Part shown: positions 15,912 to 24,385 of the stretch, one piece after another | How positions within the stretch are numbered: position 1 is the first letter of the stretch | How the letters are laid out: every line of letters begins with the position of its first letter | Assembly (NCBI RefSeq): GCF_011758805.1 | Contig: NZ_JAANOW010000001.1 | Location: forward strand, 2,604,001 to 2,668,000 | Source: Mycolicibacterium fluoranthenivorans | GTDB lineage: Bacteria; Actinomycetota; Actinomycetes; Mycobacteriales; Mycobacteriaceae | DNA: 64,000 bases | Direction: 5' to 3' | Notes under the pieces: model-generated | The model's database searches: none | Told to the model about the DNA's origin: nothing | What the model saw: the letters and a program-made list of their open reading frames with translations, nothing else | Translations under genes and position numbers: made by a program

Positions 15912-17496
<1,585 letters not shown>

Positions 17497-17565
17497 TCGC
17501 TACTGGGCTATTGAGCACGCCCCTTTTCCAGAGCCTGCCAGCCGGATGGGCGATCACTGCTTGTG

Positions 17566-17571
17566 TAGGCT
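17566..17571 (+). promoter_or_regulatory. Leaderless -10 element (TAGGCT) of the foreign rnj operon
   Basis: TAGGCT, 7 nt, then GTG: the same leaderless layout as host genes, although this is the left end of the foreign block. It favours the GTG start over an ATG 33 nt upstream and gives the block its own promoter. Confidence 0.55.
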
Positions 17572-17578
17572 GCGTCTG

Positions 17579-19267
17579 GTGACCATTGCAGCGCCAATGC
17601 CTCTGGCTGAGGACGACATAAATGCCCTAAGAATCTACTCTCTAGGCGGCATCGGCGAGATCGGCCGCAACATGACAGTGTTTGAGTCGCAAGGCCGTCT
17701 TCTTATCGTCGATTGTGGTGTGATGTTCCCTGAGTCCGAGCACCCGGGCATCGACGTCATCCTTCCCGATATGAGAGCTATCGAAGATAGGTTGGCCGAT
17801 ATCGAAGCACTGGTCCTGACACACGGCCATGAGGATCATATAGGCGCGATACCTTTTCTACTCCGGATGCGACCGGATTTGCCAGTTGTCGGTGCTGAGT
17901 TCACCCTTGCGCTCGTGGGCGCAAAGTGCGCGGAGAAAGGTCTCAAACCGCGGACGATTGAGGTCGTTCCGGGTCAGAATATTGAGTTTGGCCCATACCG
18001 CTGTGAATTCATTTCGGTATGTCATTCGATTCCCGATTCCATGGCGATTGCCATTCGCACCACTGCGGGGCTTATTTTGCATACGGGGGATCTTAAGCTC
18101 GATCAACTCCCAATCGACGGCGTGACAACGGATCTCTCCAGATTTGGCGCACTCGGCGCGGAGGGCGTGGATCTGCTCCTGGTCGATTCTACAAATGCCG
18201 ATGTGCCGGGATTCGTAGGATACGAACGAGATATCGCTCCGGTGCTGGACAACCAGGTGCGCCGTGCTCGCGGTCGCGTGATTATGACTTCTTTCGCGAG
18301 CAATATCCACCGTATTCAGCAAGCAGTGGACGTCGCGATATCCAACGAGCGTAACATCTGTTTCGTAGGTAGGTCTATGCTGCGAAATGTTGCGATAGCA
18401 CAAGAGCGTGGCTTGCTGGTCGTCCCTAGTGGATCCGAAGTATCTATTAGTGAGGCAGCGACCATGCCGGATCATCGTCTCGCGATAGTGTGTACTGGTT
18501 CGCAGGGCGAACCGCTATCCGCCCTCGCGCGGATGGCAGAAGGTACGCACAGACAAATTTCGATCACTGAAGGCGATTTGATACTATTCGCCTCTTCTCT
18601 CGTTCCGGGTAACGAAACCGCGGTGTACCGGCTAGTTAATAATCTCATACATAAGGGCGCTAGCGTAATCACGCAGAATGACTATCCGATTCACGTATCT
18701 GGTCACGCGAATGCTGGCGAGCTATTATTTCTCTATAATTTGATAAAGCCTCGAAATGTCGTTCCGGTACACGGTGAATGGCGGCATCTAGCGGCCAATG
18801 CCAGATTGGCGAAGCTCACTGGAATTGATGAACGCAATGTGCTGGTGGCTCGAAATGGGTTAGTGATGGACCTTCGAAACGGCGTTTTGGAGACGGCCGG
18901 TCAGTTGCCTGTAGGCATGGTTTACGTTGACGGGAGCGTGGTGGGTGACATCGACGATACGACCATTTCGCACCGGCGCATCCTCGGCGAGGATGGATTC
19001 ATTTCTGCTATAGCCACTGTAGATCTCAATGCCCGCTGCACCGTGGGCAAGCCCGTACTTAACGCACGGGGGTTCTCGGCGGACTCGACAGCCCTCGAAA
19101 CCGTATCAATCGAGGTAGAAGCCGCGGTAAAGCAAGCCCTGGAAGATAGTGAGGTTACTCCCGAGCACCTCGTTAGGGAGATGCGACGAGTCATTGGCCG
19201 TTGGGTTTCGAGGACATATAAGCGGAAGCCGATGATCGTACCGACTGTGGTCGAGATAAGCTCCTGA
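17579..19267 (+). CDS. rnj: Ribonuclease J, divergent horizontally acquired copy
   Basis: A 562-residue RNase J, a cytoplasmic metallo-beta-lactamase-fold 5'-3' exo/endonuclease for mRNA decay and rRNA maturation. Catalytic motifs are intact: THGHEDHIGAIPF, LHTGDLKLDQLP, DSTNADVPGF, and HVSGHANAGELLF followed by PVHGEWRHL. Base composition is clearly more AT-rich than dapA or ftsK, with codons such as ATA and TTA. HGEWRHL and the ending WVSRTYKRKPMIVPTVVEISS are closer to Streptomyces-type RNase J than to the HGTWRML and WVGETYRRQPM forms I recall from mycobacteria. It probably supplies the cell's RNase J, since the resident copy survives only as a 3' remnant in this window. Confidence 0.92.
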   Translation: MTIAAPMPLAEDDINALRIYSLGGIGEIGRNMTVFESQGRLLIVDCGVMFPESEHPGIDVILPDMRAIEDRLADIEALVLTHGHEDHIGAIPFLLRMRPDLPVVGAEFTLALVGAKCAEKGLKPRTIEVVPGQNIEFGPYRCEFISVCHSIPDSMAIAIRTTAGLILHTGDLKLDQLPIDGVTTDLSRFGALGAEGVDLLLVDSTNADVPGFVGYERDIAPVLDNQVRRARGRVIMTSFASNIHRIQQAVDVAISNERNICFVGRSMLRNVAIAQERGLLVVPSGSEVSISEAATMPDHRLAIVCTGSQGEPLSALARMAEGTHRQISITEGDLILFASSLVPGNETAVYRLVNNLIHKGASVITQNDYPIHVSGHANAGELLFLYNLIKPRNVVPVHGEWRHLAANARLAKLTGIDERNVLVARNGLVMDLRNGVLETAGQLPVGMVYVDGSVVGDIDDTTISHRRILGEDGFISAIATVDLNARCTVGKPVLNARGFSADSTALETVSIEVEAAVKQALEDSEVTPEHLVREMRRVIGRWVSRTYKRKPMIVPTVVEISS

Positions 19268-19286
19268 GCGCGGTGTTACCTACGCC

Positions 19287-20015
19287 GTGAAACGGGCAGC
19301 CCTCGACACTCTCGCAGTCTATTCCGATCGTCCAATCGATGCGGTTCTATTCGACTGGGGCGGCACTTTGGCCCAGTACCTCGGCGATACTCCGCGGGAG
19401 TGCGTTTATTTCGCTGCGAACCAAGTGTTGCCGAGTCGCATAGCTGACTCGTTTGCCGACGTGGTATCGCAATTAATTGAACAATCTTGGTCAGCCGGAC
19501 CGAACGTTAGGGATACCATAAGCTCGCTCACTATGCGAGCAGTGAGTATAACGGAAAATCCCGAGATCACGGAAGATATCGGACGGCTGTTTATTGGATC
19601 TTTTCTTAGCGTCCTGGCAACTTTAATACGGCACAACAATACGGCAGCGACGGTTCTGGCAGGTATAAGGCGACAAGGCATCAAAACGGCGATGGTATGC
19701 AACACGATCTGGCCAGCAGCTTGGCACGATGACCTATTGGCTAGAGATGGCCTTATCGCACTGTTGCCTATCCGTACGTATTCTAGCCAGACCTTCGTCC
19801 GCAAGCCTGAGCCAAGAGCATTCCAAATTGTGTTGGATCGGCTACAAGTTAAAGCACATGGCTGTGTATTTGTCGGAGATCGAGGCGACGAGGACATTGA
19901 CGGGGCGGCGGCGATGGGCATGGCTACAATCTGGGTGCGGAATGGCTATAGTGAGCCTTTCCTGCATCGACCTGACCAGGTCATTGATTCAGTTAGTGAA
20001 TTAGTTGCTGATTGA
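19287..20015 (+). CDS. HAD-superfamily hydrolase in foreign cassette
   Basis: A 242-residue HAD hydrolase. Motif I is VLFDWGGTL: the nucleophile Asp is present but the usual second Asp (DxD) is Gly, as in some HAD subgroups with altered acid/base chemistry. Motif II Thr is in MVCNTIW, motif III Lys in VRKPEPRAF, and motif IV is VFVGDRGDEDIDGA. It may be a small-molecule or nucleotide phosphatase; the substrate is unknown. It starts with GTG 19 bp after rnj, is AT-rich, and its stop is almost contiguous with the next gene, so the four genes look like one operon. Confidence 0.8.
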   Translation: MKRAALDTLAVYSDRPIDAVLFDWGGTLAQYLGDTPRECVYFAANQVLPSRIADSFADVVSQLIEQSWSAGPNVRDTISSLTMRAVSITENPEITEDIGRLFIGSFLSVLATLIRHNNTAATVLAGIRRQGIKTAMVCNTIWPAAWHDDLLARDGLIALLPIRTYSSQTFVRKPEPRAFQIVLDRLQVKAHGCVFVGDRGDEDIDGAAAMGMATIWVRNGYSEPFLHRPDQVIDSVSELVAD

Positions 20016-20020
20016 CCACG

Positions 20021-20731
20021 ATGACTTCTAGTGTTTTGCGACTGCGTGAAAGACTATCCAATAGTGTGCTGATTGCGATTAGACGCGCGGGCATTCCGGC
20101 GGATGCGCTCTACGGATCGTGGGCGTTCGGTGACTTTCATCTCGATGAAGGACGGTTGGAAACGTTCAGCGATTTAGATCTGATGATTCCTGCTGGATCA
20201 GTGTCCGACTCTGCTTTGTCGTCCTTTCAGGGGACTTTGTCCCAGATAATCCCATTAACAATTTCGGTGAGACGTCACGACGACTTGGCCGGCGATATCA
20301 GTAGCGCAAGTGACCGGTGGATTACTCTAGTTGGCTTCGCCTCGTCGATAAGTAAAAAGGATCGACCTATAGAGTCGAATTATCGTTCGTATCTGGAGGC
20401 GAAGACTCTGCTAATGTTGTTGCGCGAGGATCGCGATTCCAGATACGCTGAAGTAGCCGAGGGAATCGGGACCAGTGCGGCGCGAAACGCGCTAGATCTA
20501 AAGACCGGCGCCGCTTCGAGATGGGATCGCGATTCGTACTTAACCGTACTGTTGGATGGCGTTACTGAACCATTTCGGACGATTATGTCTTTGATTTTGC
20601 AATGTGGAGAGATAGACTTGCAAATTGTAGAAATGCTATGTTGTGGTCTGGACGGTGTGGCACACGAAATGCCGGCTACACTCACGTCGCATACACGATC
20701 AAAGTTGGCCGAAATGCGAAAGTATATCTGA
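20021..20731 (+). CDS. Pol-beta superfamily nucleotidyltransferase in foreign cassette
   Basis: A 236-residue protein. The nucleotidyltransferase signature is visible early: LYGSWAFGDFHLDEG then FSDLDLMIP, that is GS-x-x-x-G followed by D-x-D metal ligands. The remaining 150 residues are mostly helical and not recognised. It could transfer a nucleotide to a protein, RNA or small molecule. It is shorter than typical CD-NTases of CBASS, and I see no CBASS accessory genes. The ATG is preferred to a TTG 9 nt upstream that would overlap the HAD gene. The next gene starts 2 bp after its stop. Confidence 0.7.
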   Translation: MTSSVLRLRERLSNSVLIAIRRAGIPADALYGSWAFGDFHLDEGRLETFSDLDLMIPAGSVSDSALSSFQGTLSQIIPLTISVRRHDDLAGDISSASDRWITLVGFASSISKKDRPIESNYRSYLEAKTLLMLLREDRDSRYAEVAEGIGTSAARNALDLKTGAASRWDRDSYLTVLLDGVTEPFRTIMSLILQCGEIDLQIVEMLCCGLDGVAHEMPATLTSHTRSKLAEMRKYI

Positions 20732-20732
20732 C

Positions 20733-21605
20733 ATGCGGCAGGATAACGTGCTATTTATTACTCTCGACTCTTGCCGATTAGACACTGCGATATCGACTCA
20801 CACTCCGAACCTGGATCGAATTGGCCGATTGATTCCTAGTTATACGACCGCAACGTTTACATTGCCAGCTCATTTATCATTCTTTTCAGGTTTCCTTCCA
20901 GTGCCGACCGGACCGCACTTGTATCTTGGCCGGTATGCACGGGTATGGCGATCGCAAGCGGCGCGGCCGACATCGAAAGCTGTTTACGAATGGATTGATA
21001 CTCCGACAATTATCGAGCATTATGGCCGACGTGGCTATCTGGTGCATGGGGTTGGGGGCGTCCAATTCTTTGACCCACGGAATGAAGCGAATTTTCTGCC
21101 CGCGCTATTCGATTCATTCGAATATTGCGGACCGAGTGCCGGCCAAGCAATCGAGGATGGCCCGGTGGCGTTTACAGCGCATGCACTCGAGACGGCGGTT
21201 GCAAAGATGAATGGGACCGTGCCGTTCTTCCTCTTTGCGAACCTGAGCGAAACGCATTATCCTTACCACTCGCCCGGATGTTCGGACGACGAGGCGACCC
21301 GTGACGCGTTGAGAATCATGCAGTTGTCGGAAGGCGAGAAACGGTATCCGGCGATTGCCGAGGGAAGACTTATCGAATTGCTACAGCCTGCACGTACTCG
21401 ACAACGGGAGTCATTGCGGTGGATTGACACGATGTTGGGGCGAGTCCTGGACATCTTGTTAAATGCGGAAATGCCAACTCTCATTGTGGTCTGCGCCGAT
21501 CACGGCGAATCATTCGGTGAAGGCGGACTTGTTGGCCACGGGCATCCCGCTCCAGAAGTAATGACTGTGCCGATGTGGGCTGGTCTGGTAGGCCCAACCC
21601 ACTAG
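20733..21605 (+). CDS. Alkaline phosphatase/sulfatase superfamily metalloenzyme in foreign cassette
   Basis: A 290-residue protein of the alkaline-phosphatase fold. DNVLFITLDSCRLDT holds the first metal ligand. TFTLPAHLSFFSGF aligns with the sulfatase C/S-x-P-S-R signature but has Thr at the nucleophile position, so a formylglycine sulfatase is unlikely and a phospho- or phosphodiester hydrolase/transferase is favoured. NLSETHYPYHSPG and CADHGESFGEGGLVGHGHP supply further metal ligands. No signal peptide is seen, so it should be cytosolic. It lies 2 bp after the nucleotidyltransferase gene in the same operon. The function is unknown. Confidence 0.75.
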   Translation: MRQDNVLFITLDSCRLDTAISTHTPNLDRIGRLIPSYTTATFTLPAHLSFFSGFLPVPTGPHLYLGRYARVWRSQAARPTSKAVYEWIDTPTIIEHYGRRGYLVHGVGGVQFFDPRNEANFLPALFDSFEYCGPSAGQAIEDGPVAFTAHALETAVAKMNGTVPFFLFANLSETHYPYHSPGCSDDEATRDALRIMQLSEGEKRYPAIAEGRLIELLQPARTRQRESLRWIDTMLGRVLDILLNAEMPTLIVVCADHGESFGEGGLVGHGHPAPEVMTVPMWAGLVGPTH

Positions 21606-21649
21606 AAATGCGCGAGTTAATATTGCGCGCGCTCAGCTTTGAATGCCTG

Positions 21650-21655
21650 TAGTAT
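21650..21655 (+). promoter_or_regulatory. Leaderless -10 element (TAGTAT) of the membrane-protein gene
   Basis: TAGTAT, 7 nt, then ATG. This gives the last gene of the foreign block its own promoter and start, separate from the rnj-led operon. Confidence 0.55.
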
Positions 21656-21662
21656 CCGGCGA

Positions 21663-23186
21663 ATGACGACCGAGATGCCGATGCCCGTTGGTGACGAGTC
21701 CATTGCCGATACTCCGTTGCGGTGGGCGCCTGAAAGTCGTCCCTTGAGTCGGCATGAATTCTATCTTGTATATCCGTTCAAGACGCAACTACAGGATATA
21801 ACAGAATTGCGCATGTGGGACAACTACACTCACCGTCTCACGAATGCGCAGCTAGAGCGCGAGTTGCGCGACTCCTATGCTTTTCTGCCGCACGCTAGGA
21901 ATTCACATTACGCGCGCTTTGCGGGCGATCTTGAGGAAGCAGATTTGTGCATCTTCGATGGCTATCGGAACGGCACCAATTCCGTTCGATTGACTTTACG
22001 TAGTTCCGAACATTTGAAGTACTTTCCACGTCGCGCGACCGTATTTCGGGCAGACAAAACTTACTTTACTATCAGTGTTGATGTCGGATGGGTAGATATT
22101 TTCTTGTTTCCTTCTGGGTTTGGCTTTCTAGTATACAAATTCTCAACCAGTAAGTTAACTGTCGAGGATGCAGGTGTTGTTCATCGAAGTATAAAAAAGG
22201 TCTACTACCGGGAGCGTTTGCGGGTGAATCCCCCGGTGCTTCACATAATAGGTCATCTTGAACGAAACTGGCAGACGATGTTAGCCGATTTGTTGTCTGA
22301 ATTTGATGCCGATATTGCGGATGAATGGGCGCAGACGCACGCTTCAAGTTTTCGTGTGATGAGCTTAGCGATCGGTCCGGATCTGGCGAATGATGGCATT
22401 CGATACGGCAATATTGAGGGTTCTGAGGAGGGGCATTTAATCTCGCTGATCACAGGTGAGGACCTTTCGACTATTTCCCATCCGGGCAAGGATTTGGTAG
22501 ATACGAGCCGTAAGCGAGGTAGGTTGGCCTACTGGCGCGACTGGTCGGGACTTTTTCTCTGGGATGATGTTGCGTTCATCGGAACGGAAACGGAATTCAC
22601 CACAACTCACCTCGTTCATAATGTCGAGGCTATGTATCTGCCGCTATTTATCTACACTCTCTATCAAAGTCTTCGGCTTAGTGAGATATCAGTACAGCTC
22701 GGTGCATTGTCAGTTGAGGCGCGTGCCAAGCGTAATGGTGTGCTAGGTAAGCTGGAAAAGCTCAATTCTGAACTTCGCTTTTTTCGTAGCAACTTCATGT
22801 TCTGGGAGATTAGTCGTCAGCCAGTAATGGCAGCCCTGTTTAATCGTCTCGTATCGCACTTTGAAACTGGTTTGCTCTTTGAACAGATCGAACACGATAT
22901 CGAACGAATGTATCAACAAGAGCGGACCGTAGGGCAGGAGCGGCTGGCGCTTTTCGTGGGGTTGGCGACATTTTTTGCATTACCGGTTGGCGGGTTGCTG
23001 GCGGCGTTCAGCGGGTCAGTATCAAGCTTTCTTCACGATAGTTGGATGAGGTGGCTCCTTACGGTTTTTGTTGTCACACTTTCAGCGCTCGGATGGCTAG
23101 TGGCCTCGGATCGCGTGAGGGTCCCGCTAAGGGAGGATTGGGCAAAGATCAGACGCCGGATATTGTTTGGGCGTCGGTTGTCTTAG
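21663..23186 (+). CDS. Uncharacterised protein with two C-terminal membrane helices (CorA-like layout)
   Basis: A 507-residue AT-rich gene product. About 300 residues of mixed alpha/beta sequence are followed by long helices (about 330-440) containing charged, possibly coiled-coil stretches (GVLGKLEKLNSELRFF, QIEHDIERMYQQERTVGQ). Two transmembrane helices follow: FVGLATFFALPVGGLLAAF and WLLTVFVVTLSALGWLVA. A basic cytosolic tail ends the protein. This order resembles CorA-type channels, but the GMN selectivity motif is absent and no homology is claimed. It could be a membrane effector or sensor of the cassette. I do not recognise the family. Confidence 0.65.
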   Translation: MTTEMPMPVGDESIADTPLRWAPESRPLSRHEFYLVYPFKTQLQDITELRMWDNYTHRLTNAQLERELRDSYAFLPHARNSHYARFAGDLEEADLCIFDGYRNGTNSVRLTLRSSEHLKYFPRRATVFRADKTYFTISVDVGWVDIFLFPSGFGFLVYKFSTSKLTVEDAGVVHRSIKKVYYRERLRVNPPVLHIIGHLERNWQTMLADLLSEFDADIADEWAQTHASSFRVMSLAIGPDLANDGIRYGNIEGSEEGHLISLITGEDLSTISHPGKDLVDTSRKRGRLAYWRDWSGLFLWDDVAFIGTETEFTTTHLVHNVEAMYLPLFIYTLYQSLRLSEISVQLGALSVEARAKRNGVLGKLEKLNSELRFFRSNFMFWEISRQPVMAALFNRLVSHFETGLLFEQIEHDIERMYQQERTVGQERLALFVGLATFFALPVGGLLAAFSGSVSSFLHDSWMRWLLTVFVVTLSALGWLVASDRVRVPLREDWAKIRRRILFGRRLS

Positions 23187-23449
23187 TGCCGGTTTGATCG
23201 TCGTTACTGGGGGATAGCGGCGTGTGTGTGCATATGGGTTGGATGACATGGTGGCACCGCAAACGTTCGCGTATTGGTGTGTGAGGCGCAGCGCCTTTGG
23301 TTGGCACCGCCCCGCCCTAACGGAAGGCTTCGGCGAACGGCCGGTCGCTCGCCTTGCATTTCACCGACGCAATGTTGCCGCTCAGGGGTGAGGGCAGCCG
23401 TCAGAGGTAGTTCGGGGGCCTCTTGAAAGATCACACCGGCTGTCCGAGC
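23187..23449. other. Non-coding scar between the foreign cassette and the rnj remnant
   Basis: I find no convincing gene in these 263 bp. Composition returns towards host GC. The left end (GTCGTTACTGGG) matches 11 of 12 bases of GTCGCTACTGGG at the dapA stop, a possible flanking direct repeat. A GC-rich hairpin (TGCCGCTCA-GGGG-TGAGGGCA, one bulge) lies at 23376-23396. The last bases before the remnant resemble a degraded rnj sequence. The segment may be recombination debris. Confidence 0.4.
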
Positions 23450-23512
23450 AAGTGGGTCGGCGAGGTGTACCGCCGCCAGCCGATGATCGTGCCGACGGTG
23501 ATCGAGGTCTGA
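23450..23512 (+). pseudogene. rnj: Surviving 3' end of the resident mycobacterial rnj
   Basis: An open stretch of 20 codons plus stop reads KWVGEVYRRQPMIVPTVIEV, essentially the C-terminus of mycobacterial RNase J as I know it (M. tuberculosis ends KWVGETYRRQPMIVPTVIEV). It has host-like GC and abuts the methyltransferase gene exactly as an intact rnj would. Upstream of the first Lys the similarity stops. It therefore appears to be the leftover of the native gene after replacement by the foreign copy some 4 kb upstream. Confidence 0.88.
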
Positions 23513-24385
23513 TCAGACCCGCACCGCCACGGCGGCCCACTCGATGGGCGAGGCGGTCAGTTTCCGTCCGGTCGGACGGATGTAGGTGTCGCGGTAGTAG
23601 CTCGGTCCGGCCTGCTCGATCAACCGCCACCCGTAGCCGGCCAGGATCTCCTCGACCCGTTCCGGCACGAAACCCGATTTCCATACCTGGCGGCGTACGC
23701 GGAACCGGCGGTGCAGCGCTCGCGCGCCGTACAGGTTGGCGCCGTCGATGAAGTCCTGCCGGATGTAGGTGAAGATCATCCGGCTGCCGGGTACGACGGC
23801 GCGCAGCTGCTCGAATGTCGCATGCAGGGCCTGCGGGGTGAGGTACTGGGTGACCCCCTCCCAGATGAACAAGGTGTGTCCGGTGTCGTGGAAGCCAGCG
23901 GCGGCCAGCGCGGCGACCACGTCATCCCGCTCGAAATCGACGCTCACCAGGCGTACCGACGCCGGTACCGAGCCGAAAACCCGTTGTACCGTGGCGGTTT
24001 TGCGGTCGATGTTGAGTTGCTGATCGACCTCGAACACCGGGAGATCGCTGTAGCGGGCAATCCGGTAGGGGCGGGTGTCCAGGCCCGCACCGAGGATGAC
24101 GACGGTGTCGAACTCGGTGACCGGATCGGAGACCCGTTCGTCGATATAGCGTTTGCGGCAGGCGATGCTGGCCCACAGGCCGGGACCGGACCGTTCGGTT
24201 GCGGCGACCACCGCCCGGCGCAGCATGCCGAGGCGCAGCAACCCGACCACCGTGCGCATGCCGCCGGGCAGGAAAGATTGCGCCAGATCGTCATCGACCA
24301 ACCGGCGTTGCGGTGCCTCATGGTGCTCGACCGCCGCCAGCACCATCGGCCCGAAAGCCGTCTGCGCCTCCGGATTCCCTGCCAT
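23513..24385 (-). CDS. SAM-dependent methyltransferase, LCM family (Rv2751-like)
   Basis: A 290-residue methyltransferase of the leucine-carboxyl-methyltransferase-like family common in mycobacteria. VVILGAGLDTRPYR is the SAM-binding glycine-rich loop, FEVDQQLNI carries the acidic residue contacting the ribose, and FIWEGVTQYLTPQAL is the family's conserved active-site region. The substrate is unknown. A GGGGGG-rich ribosome binding site precedes the ATG. Its position just after rnj, convergent with it, matches Rv2751-Rv2752c. Confidence 0.85.
   Translation of the reverse strand: MAGNPEAQTAFGPMVLAAVEHHEAPQRRLVDDDLAQSFLPGGMRTVVGLLRLGMLRRAVVAATERSGPGLWASIACRKRYIDERVSDPVTEFDTVVILGAGLDTRPYRIARYSDLPVFEVDQQLNIDRKTATVQRVFGSVPASVRLVSVDFERDDVVAALAAAGFHDTGHTLFIWEGVTQYLTPQALHATFEQLRAVVPGSRMIFTYIRQDFIDGANLYGARALHRRFRVRRQVWKSGFVPERVEEILAGYGWRLIEQAGPSYYRDTYIRPTGRKLTASPIEWAAVAVRV

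Follow-up and report, generated by a model that had tools for sequence, protein, structure and literature searches.

Introduction

Membrane effectors controlled by an enzyme-made nucleotide signal are a known kind of system. As far as the available text of the reports goes, the signal holds the membrane effector shut in Hailong and Panoptes (PMC13275509, PMC12657230, PMC12265719), and the CorA effectors of type III CRISPR are paired with a phosphodiesterase (PMC10600005). This study was concerned with a stretch of 64,000 nucleotides from Mycolicibacterium fluoranthenivorans (the window: contig NZ_JAANOW010000001.1, positions 2,604,001 to 2,668,000), in which an AT-rich block of five genes occupies the locus of rnj, the gene for RNase J. 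In M. tuberculosis, RNase J affects the decay of RNA, the maturation of rRNA and the tolerance of drugs (PMC9312406), so natural swaps of this enzyme are informative as experiments.

An earlier note, made from the letters of the window without database searches, had proposed that a foreign block replaced the resident rnj and that the incoming RNase J matters to the genes linked to it. The reading preferred here is that the block replaced the native rnj, that its RNase J is a housekeeping substitute which fixes the block in the genome, and that the other four genes are a predicted nucleotide-signalled membrane defence module. The probability of this reading as a whole is put at about 0.45. The genome of the window is referred to as G000; G041, G234, G178, G004, G278 and G012 are other genomes of the genus.

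Results

Exchange of rnj at its own locus

The order dapA, rnj, methyltransferase gene, ftsK is the mycobacterial gene order. The closest relative sampled is G234, whose ftsK is 86% identical from end to end and has the top score of the 246 other genomes in which a match was found. In G234, dapA overlaps with the native rnj, and the methyltransferase gene comes next; its RNase J matches chain 7wnt, the M. tuberculosis enzyme, at 1054 bits. Continuous homology between the window and G234 breaks off at 17492, next to the dapA stop (17496), and restarts at 23448, and what lies between is patchy similarity of one rnj to the other. Homology with G178 and G004 restarts at the identical base. The native gene survives in the window as 65 bp, which are 20 codons, the stop codon and 2 nt. 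The single RNase J of G000 has one other match in its own genome, a piece of 76 residues (34%). Thus, with one RNase J in the genome and a homology gap reaching from the dapA stop to the tail of the native gene, rnj was replaced and not duplicated. The comparison with these three genomes bears out the earlier note, which had claimed a replacement leaving the last 20 native codons; the searches that it proposed revealed no other intact RNase J in the genome and a native rnj between dapA and the methyltransferase gene in the closest sampled relatives.

The ends of the foreign and native genes share a repeat of 29 bp, 90% identical, which could have served recombination, and homologous replacement via this repeat linking both rnj ends is plausible from the sequence. 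The absence of an integrase, transposase or tRNA, remarked on before, was confirmed: the Pfam, PADLOC and TIGR-type profile matches of the five block genes are to other families or lacking, and no tRNA was found anywhere in the window.

Composition and gene content of the block

The foreign block, 17497-23447, has a GC content of 0.527, against 0.663 and 0.668 in the flanking 5 kb on either side, and sliding windows gave the same picture. GC content at third codon positions (GC3) is 0.567 in its rnj and 0.51-0.54 in the other four genes, against 0.84-0.91 in five host genes (dapA, the methyltransferase gene, ftsK and two more). The common composition of all five block genes suggests a single source. 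These values agree with the previous description of AT-rich foreign DNA directly after the stop of a host-like dapA. All five genes lie on the plus strand in the order RNase J, HAD hydrolase, Pol-beta-type nucleotidyltransferase (NTase), alkaline-phosphatase-fold hydrolase and CorA-like membrane protein, with intergenic gaps of 1-57 bp from rnj to the CorA-like gene. Profiles, a motif and hydropathy uphold these gene calls as first made, including that of a two-helix membrane protein. Table 1 lists the features.

Table 1. Features of the block and its borders, in window coordinates.
Feature	Coordinates	Strand	Evidence
dapA, host gene, left border	16594..17496	+	GC3 0.867; dapA tree with G234, 100/96
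Foreign leader, 82 bp, predicted leaderless promoter	17497..17578	+	TAGGCT (-10-like) ends 7 nt before GTG
RNase J, rare lineage	17579..19267	+	TIGR00649; catalytic HGHEDH and beta-CASP motifs
HAD-type hydrolase, motif I DWGGT	19287..20015	+	PF00702 E 5.2e-16
Pol-beta-type NTase, 236 aa, helical C-terminal part	20021..20731	+	Motif and homologues; model pLDDT 79.5
Alkaline-phosphatase-fold hydrolase	20733..21605	+	PF00884 E 1.1e-13
CorA-like membrane protein	21663..23186	+	PADLOC CorA; hydropathy
Non-coding stretch, GC 0.617, 261 bp	23187..23447		No blastn match to G234, G178, G004, G041 at E 1e-3
Native rnj 3' remnant, 65 bp, KWVGEVYRRQPMIVPTVIEV-stop	23448..23512	+	Aligned to native rnj ends of G234, G178, G004
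29-bp direct repeat, 90% identical	left 19227..19255 (end of foreign rnj), right 23478-23506	+	
LCM-family methyltransferase, host gene, right border	23513..24385	-	PF04072 E 1e-43; GC3 0.842

A lineage of RNase J rare in the genus

The block RNase J matches the full-length profile TIGR00649 at 478.6 bits (cut-off 400). Alignment with its relatives makes GTG 17579 the most likely start; a start at 17546 was set aside on the same alignment. A capped set of candidates was scored from 5.8 billion proteins, and the best 120 of 7858 matches contain four close relatives, P0010 (83%), P0011 (81%), P0012 (79%) and P0013 (76%). The remaining matches among these 120 are at most 60% identical, apart from the chimeric-looking P0014 (49%) and P0087, a fragment of the window protein itself. 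In a tree of 69 rows a branch of 1.02 unites the five lineage members (100/100), and the native enzymes of the genus stand apart, also at 100/100; identity between the two kinds is about 51-55%. The metal-binding motif HxHxDH, here HGHEDH, and the other motif residues, those of beta-CASP among them, are invariant in the five members, and the motifs align with those of solved RNase Js. Thirty sites otherwise conserved in at least 93% of 165 other RNase Js carry lineage-specific replacements.

Among 396 genomes of the genus, 388 of them with an RNase J match, the lineage was seen only in G000 and G041, the next of the matches listed by E value being 53-55% identical. No further member was found in 397 genomes of the order (394 with a match), where G000 scored 1200 bits and the next genome 799. 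The lineage was likewise not found on plasmids or in phages, whose RNase J matches (55 plasmid records at E 1e-40, 30 phage records at E 1e-5) are all below 60% identity. The ratio of GARP to FYMINK residues is 1.31-1.45 in the five lineage proteins and 1.65-2.48 in 165 others, so that the lineage holds the five lowest values of 170. This AT-rich type of protein composition suggests a long stay in AT-rich, probably mobile, DNA and, in this group, points to mobile elements as the past home of the lineage. The rnj genes of G000 and G041 differ by pN 0.108 and pS 0.782 (saturated); with pN far below pS, the pair evolves as under purifying selection.

Other RNase J occurrences were seen in passing. 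Plasmids of Brevibacterium (L062), Cellulosimicrobium (L063) and Arthrobacter (L064) each carry an RNase J gene accompanied by genes for release factor 3, a MerR regulator and two transporters, one of the MFS type and one a SulP anion transporter, a recurring set that is the subject of none of the papers listed from the open-licence literature. Several genomes of one family (f16) and G254, from the order, have two RNase J matches each. G023, rated 100% complete, has neither an RNase J nor an ftsK match; its assembly may lack this region.

The same RNase J lineage without the cassette in a second species

G041 (630 contigs, 89% complete) has the lineage RNase J, P0010, at the same locus, after thyX and dapA. 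Its rnj stop is followed by 213 bp and then by an opposite-strand frame ending SASPLEWTATAIKA-stop, of which the last 17 residues are on the contig. Compared with the methyltransferase ends (TASPIEWAAVAVRV-stop in the window, SPIEW-type in G234 and G178), this frame is read as the probable end of the methyltransferase gene. The CorA-like and phosphatase-fold genes were not found in this 89%-complete assembly; the NTase and HAD genes were not searched there. The RNase J and the cassette of four genes are therefore separable, and the idea that either needs the other is not supported as stated.

G000 and G041 are not sisters, since a dapA tree of 51 rows places G041 with G278 and G012 (97/90) and G000 with G234 (100/96). 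The rnj of G041 has a GC3 of 0.833, near that of its dapA (0.854), and so looks like an older arrival; the protein keeps the AT-rich type of composition. Between G000 and G041, dapA and RNase J are both about 82-83% identical.

Two further observations concern this locus. The 213-bp spacer of G041 (L043:56-268), between rnj and the methyltransferase gene, contains repeated motifs of the CCGAGACTGTAG and ACAACAACTACAG types. Where G041 has thyX, the window has a cytidine/dCMP-deaminase-like gene (PF00383; 15912-16490, minus strand). No Thy1 match was found in the genomes of G000 and G234, and the flavin-dependent thymidylate synthase seems to have been lost in their branch.

Cassette proteins and predicted promoters

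The NTase motif GSWAFGD...SDLDL...HDDL is invariant in all four sequences compared (G32, S33, D51, D53, D87 and D88), and the protein has no Pfam match of its own. In the available text of one report the same active-site motif is common to CBASS and other NTases (PMC12265719). The phosphatase-fold protein, aligned to choline sulfatase, carries a Thr (TLPAH) where sulfatases have CxPxR; it matches the STM4013 family at E 6.3e-37 with 127 bits, under the cut-off of 250, and is predicted to be a phosphodiesterase or transferase. The CorA-like protein consists of a soluble part of about 300 residues, a stalk helix and two C-terminal transmembrane helices (hydrophobic near 427-450 and 462-483). The PADLOC CorA models match all five CorA-like members, the window protein at E 1.4e-11 in its C-terminal part only, and the Pfam CorA transporter model matches one of the five, at E 0.021.

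In leaderless mycobacterial promoters a -10-like hexamer ends 7 nt ahead of the start codon. The rnj leaders of G000 and G041 have 13 nt in common, GCTTGTGTAGGCT, and TAGGCT ends 7 nt before the start codon in both. At the same distance stand TAGTAT before the CorA-like gene and TAATCT before host dapA. The layout was not seen at the HAD, NTase, phosphatase-fold and ftsK starts. As background, it occurs in exact form at 5 of the 209 ATG/GTG triplets of the block and at 8 of the 2148 in host stretches.

Occurrence of the cassette elsewhere

In the large protein set, relatives of the NTase (46-55%) are P0002, P0003 and P0004, on contigs of at most 6,909, 55,840 and 6,364 bp, respectively. Among a capped set of candidates scored, relatives of the CorA-like protein (49-70%) are P0006, P0007, P0008 and P0009, on contigs of at most 6,909, 5,872, 6,364 and 55,840 bp, and RNase J P0011 is also on a contig of 55,840 bp. 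Equal sizes were read as one and the same contig, and linkage is inferred from that. On this basis the NTase and CorA-like genes would occur together in all four NTase clusters (G000 and three others), and this pair with the lineage RNase J in two of the five RNase J clusters. For P0012 and P0013, no cassette gene on a contig of matching size is among the matches listed. With relatives of RNase J, NTase (47% identical to that of G000) and CorA-like protein (54%) on one contig of 55,840 bp, the linkage recurs. The recurrence predicted for a mobile system thus stands in part: these three genes are together on another contig, as judged by size, and all five are not shown to be, the HAD and phosphatase-fold homologues not having been searched in the large protein set.

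The CorA-like gene was found in one of 248 genomes of the genus, and its profile in 296 genomes of the phylum matched G000 only. Alignment scans of genome contigs with the CorA-like protein and NTase gave no further loci, nor did searches of viral contigs with the CorA-like, RNase J, NTase and phosphatase-fold queries. Neither the CorA-like protein nor the NTase was found on plasmids by tblastn.

Discussion

Probable origin and predicted function of the block

The source of the block would be mobile DNA of AT-rich composition, from which it recombined into the interval bounded by dapA and the 3' end of rnj. A leaderless promoter where dapA meets rnj would drive rnj and the cassette, and the CorA-like gene would have an additional promoter of its own. 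By analogy with described systems, the four linked genes are probably an anti-phage module of nucleotide signal and membrane effector. The CorA-like channel would be gated by a nucleotide signal from the NTase, and the phosphatase-fold and HAD enzymes would remove or trim that signal. Infection would disturb the signal and the channel would halt growth; the signal may open or close the channel, either of which fits the sequence. In the simplest view, RNase J holds the block in the genome by standing in for a core gene, a direct part in the signal being the bolder alternative. As the only copy, the foreign rnj would be kept even after loss of the cassette, as may have happened in G041.

Alternative explanations

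First, RNase J could be a working part of the module, degrading or sensing an oligonucleotide made by the NTase, with the channel gated by the balance of the two enzymes. The shared AT-rich composition, the single co-directional series with its short gaps and the AT-rich-type protein composition across the whole RNase J lineage would fit, as would the linkage on a second contig (by size), although the NTase and CorA-like proteins are so diverged there. In addition, Hailong is set off when exonuclease activity of a phage removes its DNA oligomers, in the available text of the report (PMC12657230). However, G041 keeps the RNase J without the cassette at the locus, and the NTase gives no sign of oligonucleotide synthesis, which leaves this explanation doubtful. 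Quite unlikely is its extended form, in which a mobile immune module captured the core RNA-decay gene, RNase J also sets the level of the NTase-made oligonucleotide, and the CorA-like channel opens whenever a phage attacks either RNA decay or the oligonucleotide.

Secondly, RNase J could itself be the selected cargo, in a form that escapes some inhibitor, toxin or phage protein, with the other four genes as passengers. The lineage-specific replacements, its solitary presence in G041 and the plasmids of three other genera that carry an RNase J with recurring neighbours are consistent with selection for the enzyme. The catalytic motifs are unchanged, however; the most striking replacement, N148C, falls on a site where solved RNase Js of other groups have Thr and which is therefore tolerant, and we know of no inhibitor. 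This explanation is judged unlikely.

Third, the four genes could be a small-molecule tailoring or detoxifying cassette, in which the NTase would be of the aminoglycoside type and the CorA-like protein a transporter, alongside two hydrolases. This is improbable, given that the CorA-like proteins all match the defence-associated CorA models and only one weakly matches the transporter model, and that no biosynthetic enzymes were recognised in the block.

Lastly, vertical inheritance with ordinary divergence would accord with the similar identity of dapA and RNase J between G000 and G041, but it is very improbable, as is a chance mosaic of unrelated insertions: the native gene is present in near relatives of both G000 (G234, G178) and G041 (G278, G012), G000 has a single rnj, and the five genes have one composition and a linkage that recurs, all of which contradicts the vertical order in relatives, or second rnj with a random mosaic, that the earlier note had named as its own refutations.

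A core RNA-decay enzyme appears here as an exchangeable, probably mobile gene: in two species that are not sisters a rare lineage has replaced the native one, and in one of them the cassette is linked to it. Should the cassette serve defence, it would bring together an NTase, a CorA-like channel and an alkaline-phosphatase-fold enzyme; judged by titles and abstract beginnings, none of the papers listed from the open-licence literature appears to describe this combination. The general kind is known, and the make-up and the capture of rnj would be what is new. Why such a block carries a housekeeping nuclease becomes a directly testable question.

Comparison with known systems

Hailong and CorA/SAM-AMP signalling are the nearest working analogues of the block, which is an established member of neither. 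Like Hailong (HalA/HalB), it has a Pol-beta-type NTase with a carboxylate active site adjoining a membrane protein; the helical C-terminal part of the NTase has weak structural matches to HalB, and no sequence-level match of the NTase to HalB was found among PDB chains. Unlike Hailong, it has additional HAD, phosphatase-fold and RNase J genes and a membrane protein of CorA type; HalA itself was not compared. A possible likeness to type III CRISPR CorA/SAM-AMP systems lies in the C-terminal part matched by the PADLOC CorA models and in a predicted phosphodiesterase alongside, as far as the available text describes such systems (PMC10600005). However, its hydrolase has an alkaline-phosphatase fold and is not NrN or DEDD, it has an NTase, and Cas10 (PF22335) had no match in the genome of G000; the control was positive in 5 of 14 named genomes.

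Panoptes (mCpol-2TMbeta) and CBASS are similar in concept, with a nucleotide enzyme in control of a two-helix membrane effector, in the text available (PMC12657230). The transmembrane helices of 2TMbeta are N-terminal, whereas those of the CorA-like protein are C-terminal, and the block NTase did not test as a CBASS CD-NTase at the sequence level, matching no PADLOC family at E 0.1. The native actinobacterial RNase Js (5a0t, 7wnt) are, like that of the block, full-length enzymes with the catalytic motifs; the block enzyme differs in forming a long-branch lineage of its own. Lastly, integrative elements at the 3' end of core genes resemble the block, which is likewise bordered by copies of the 3' end of its target gene, here in the form of the 29-bp repeat. 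Unlike them, it has no integrase, and it exchanged the whole gene instead of its end alone.

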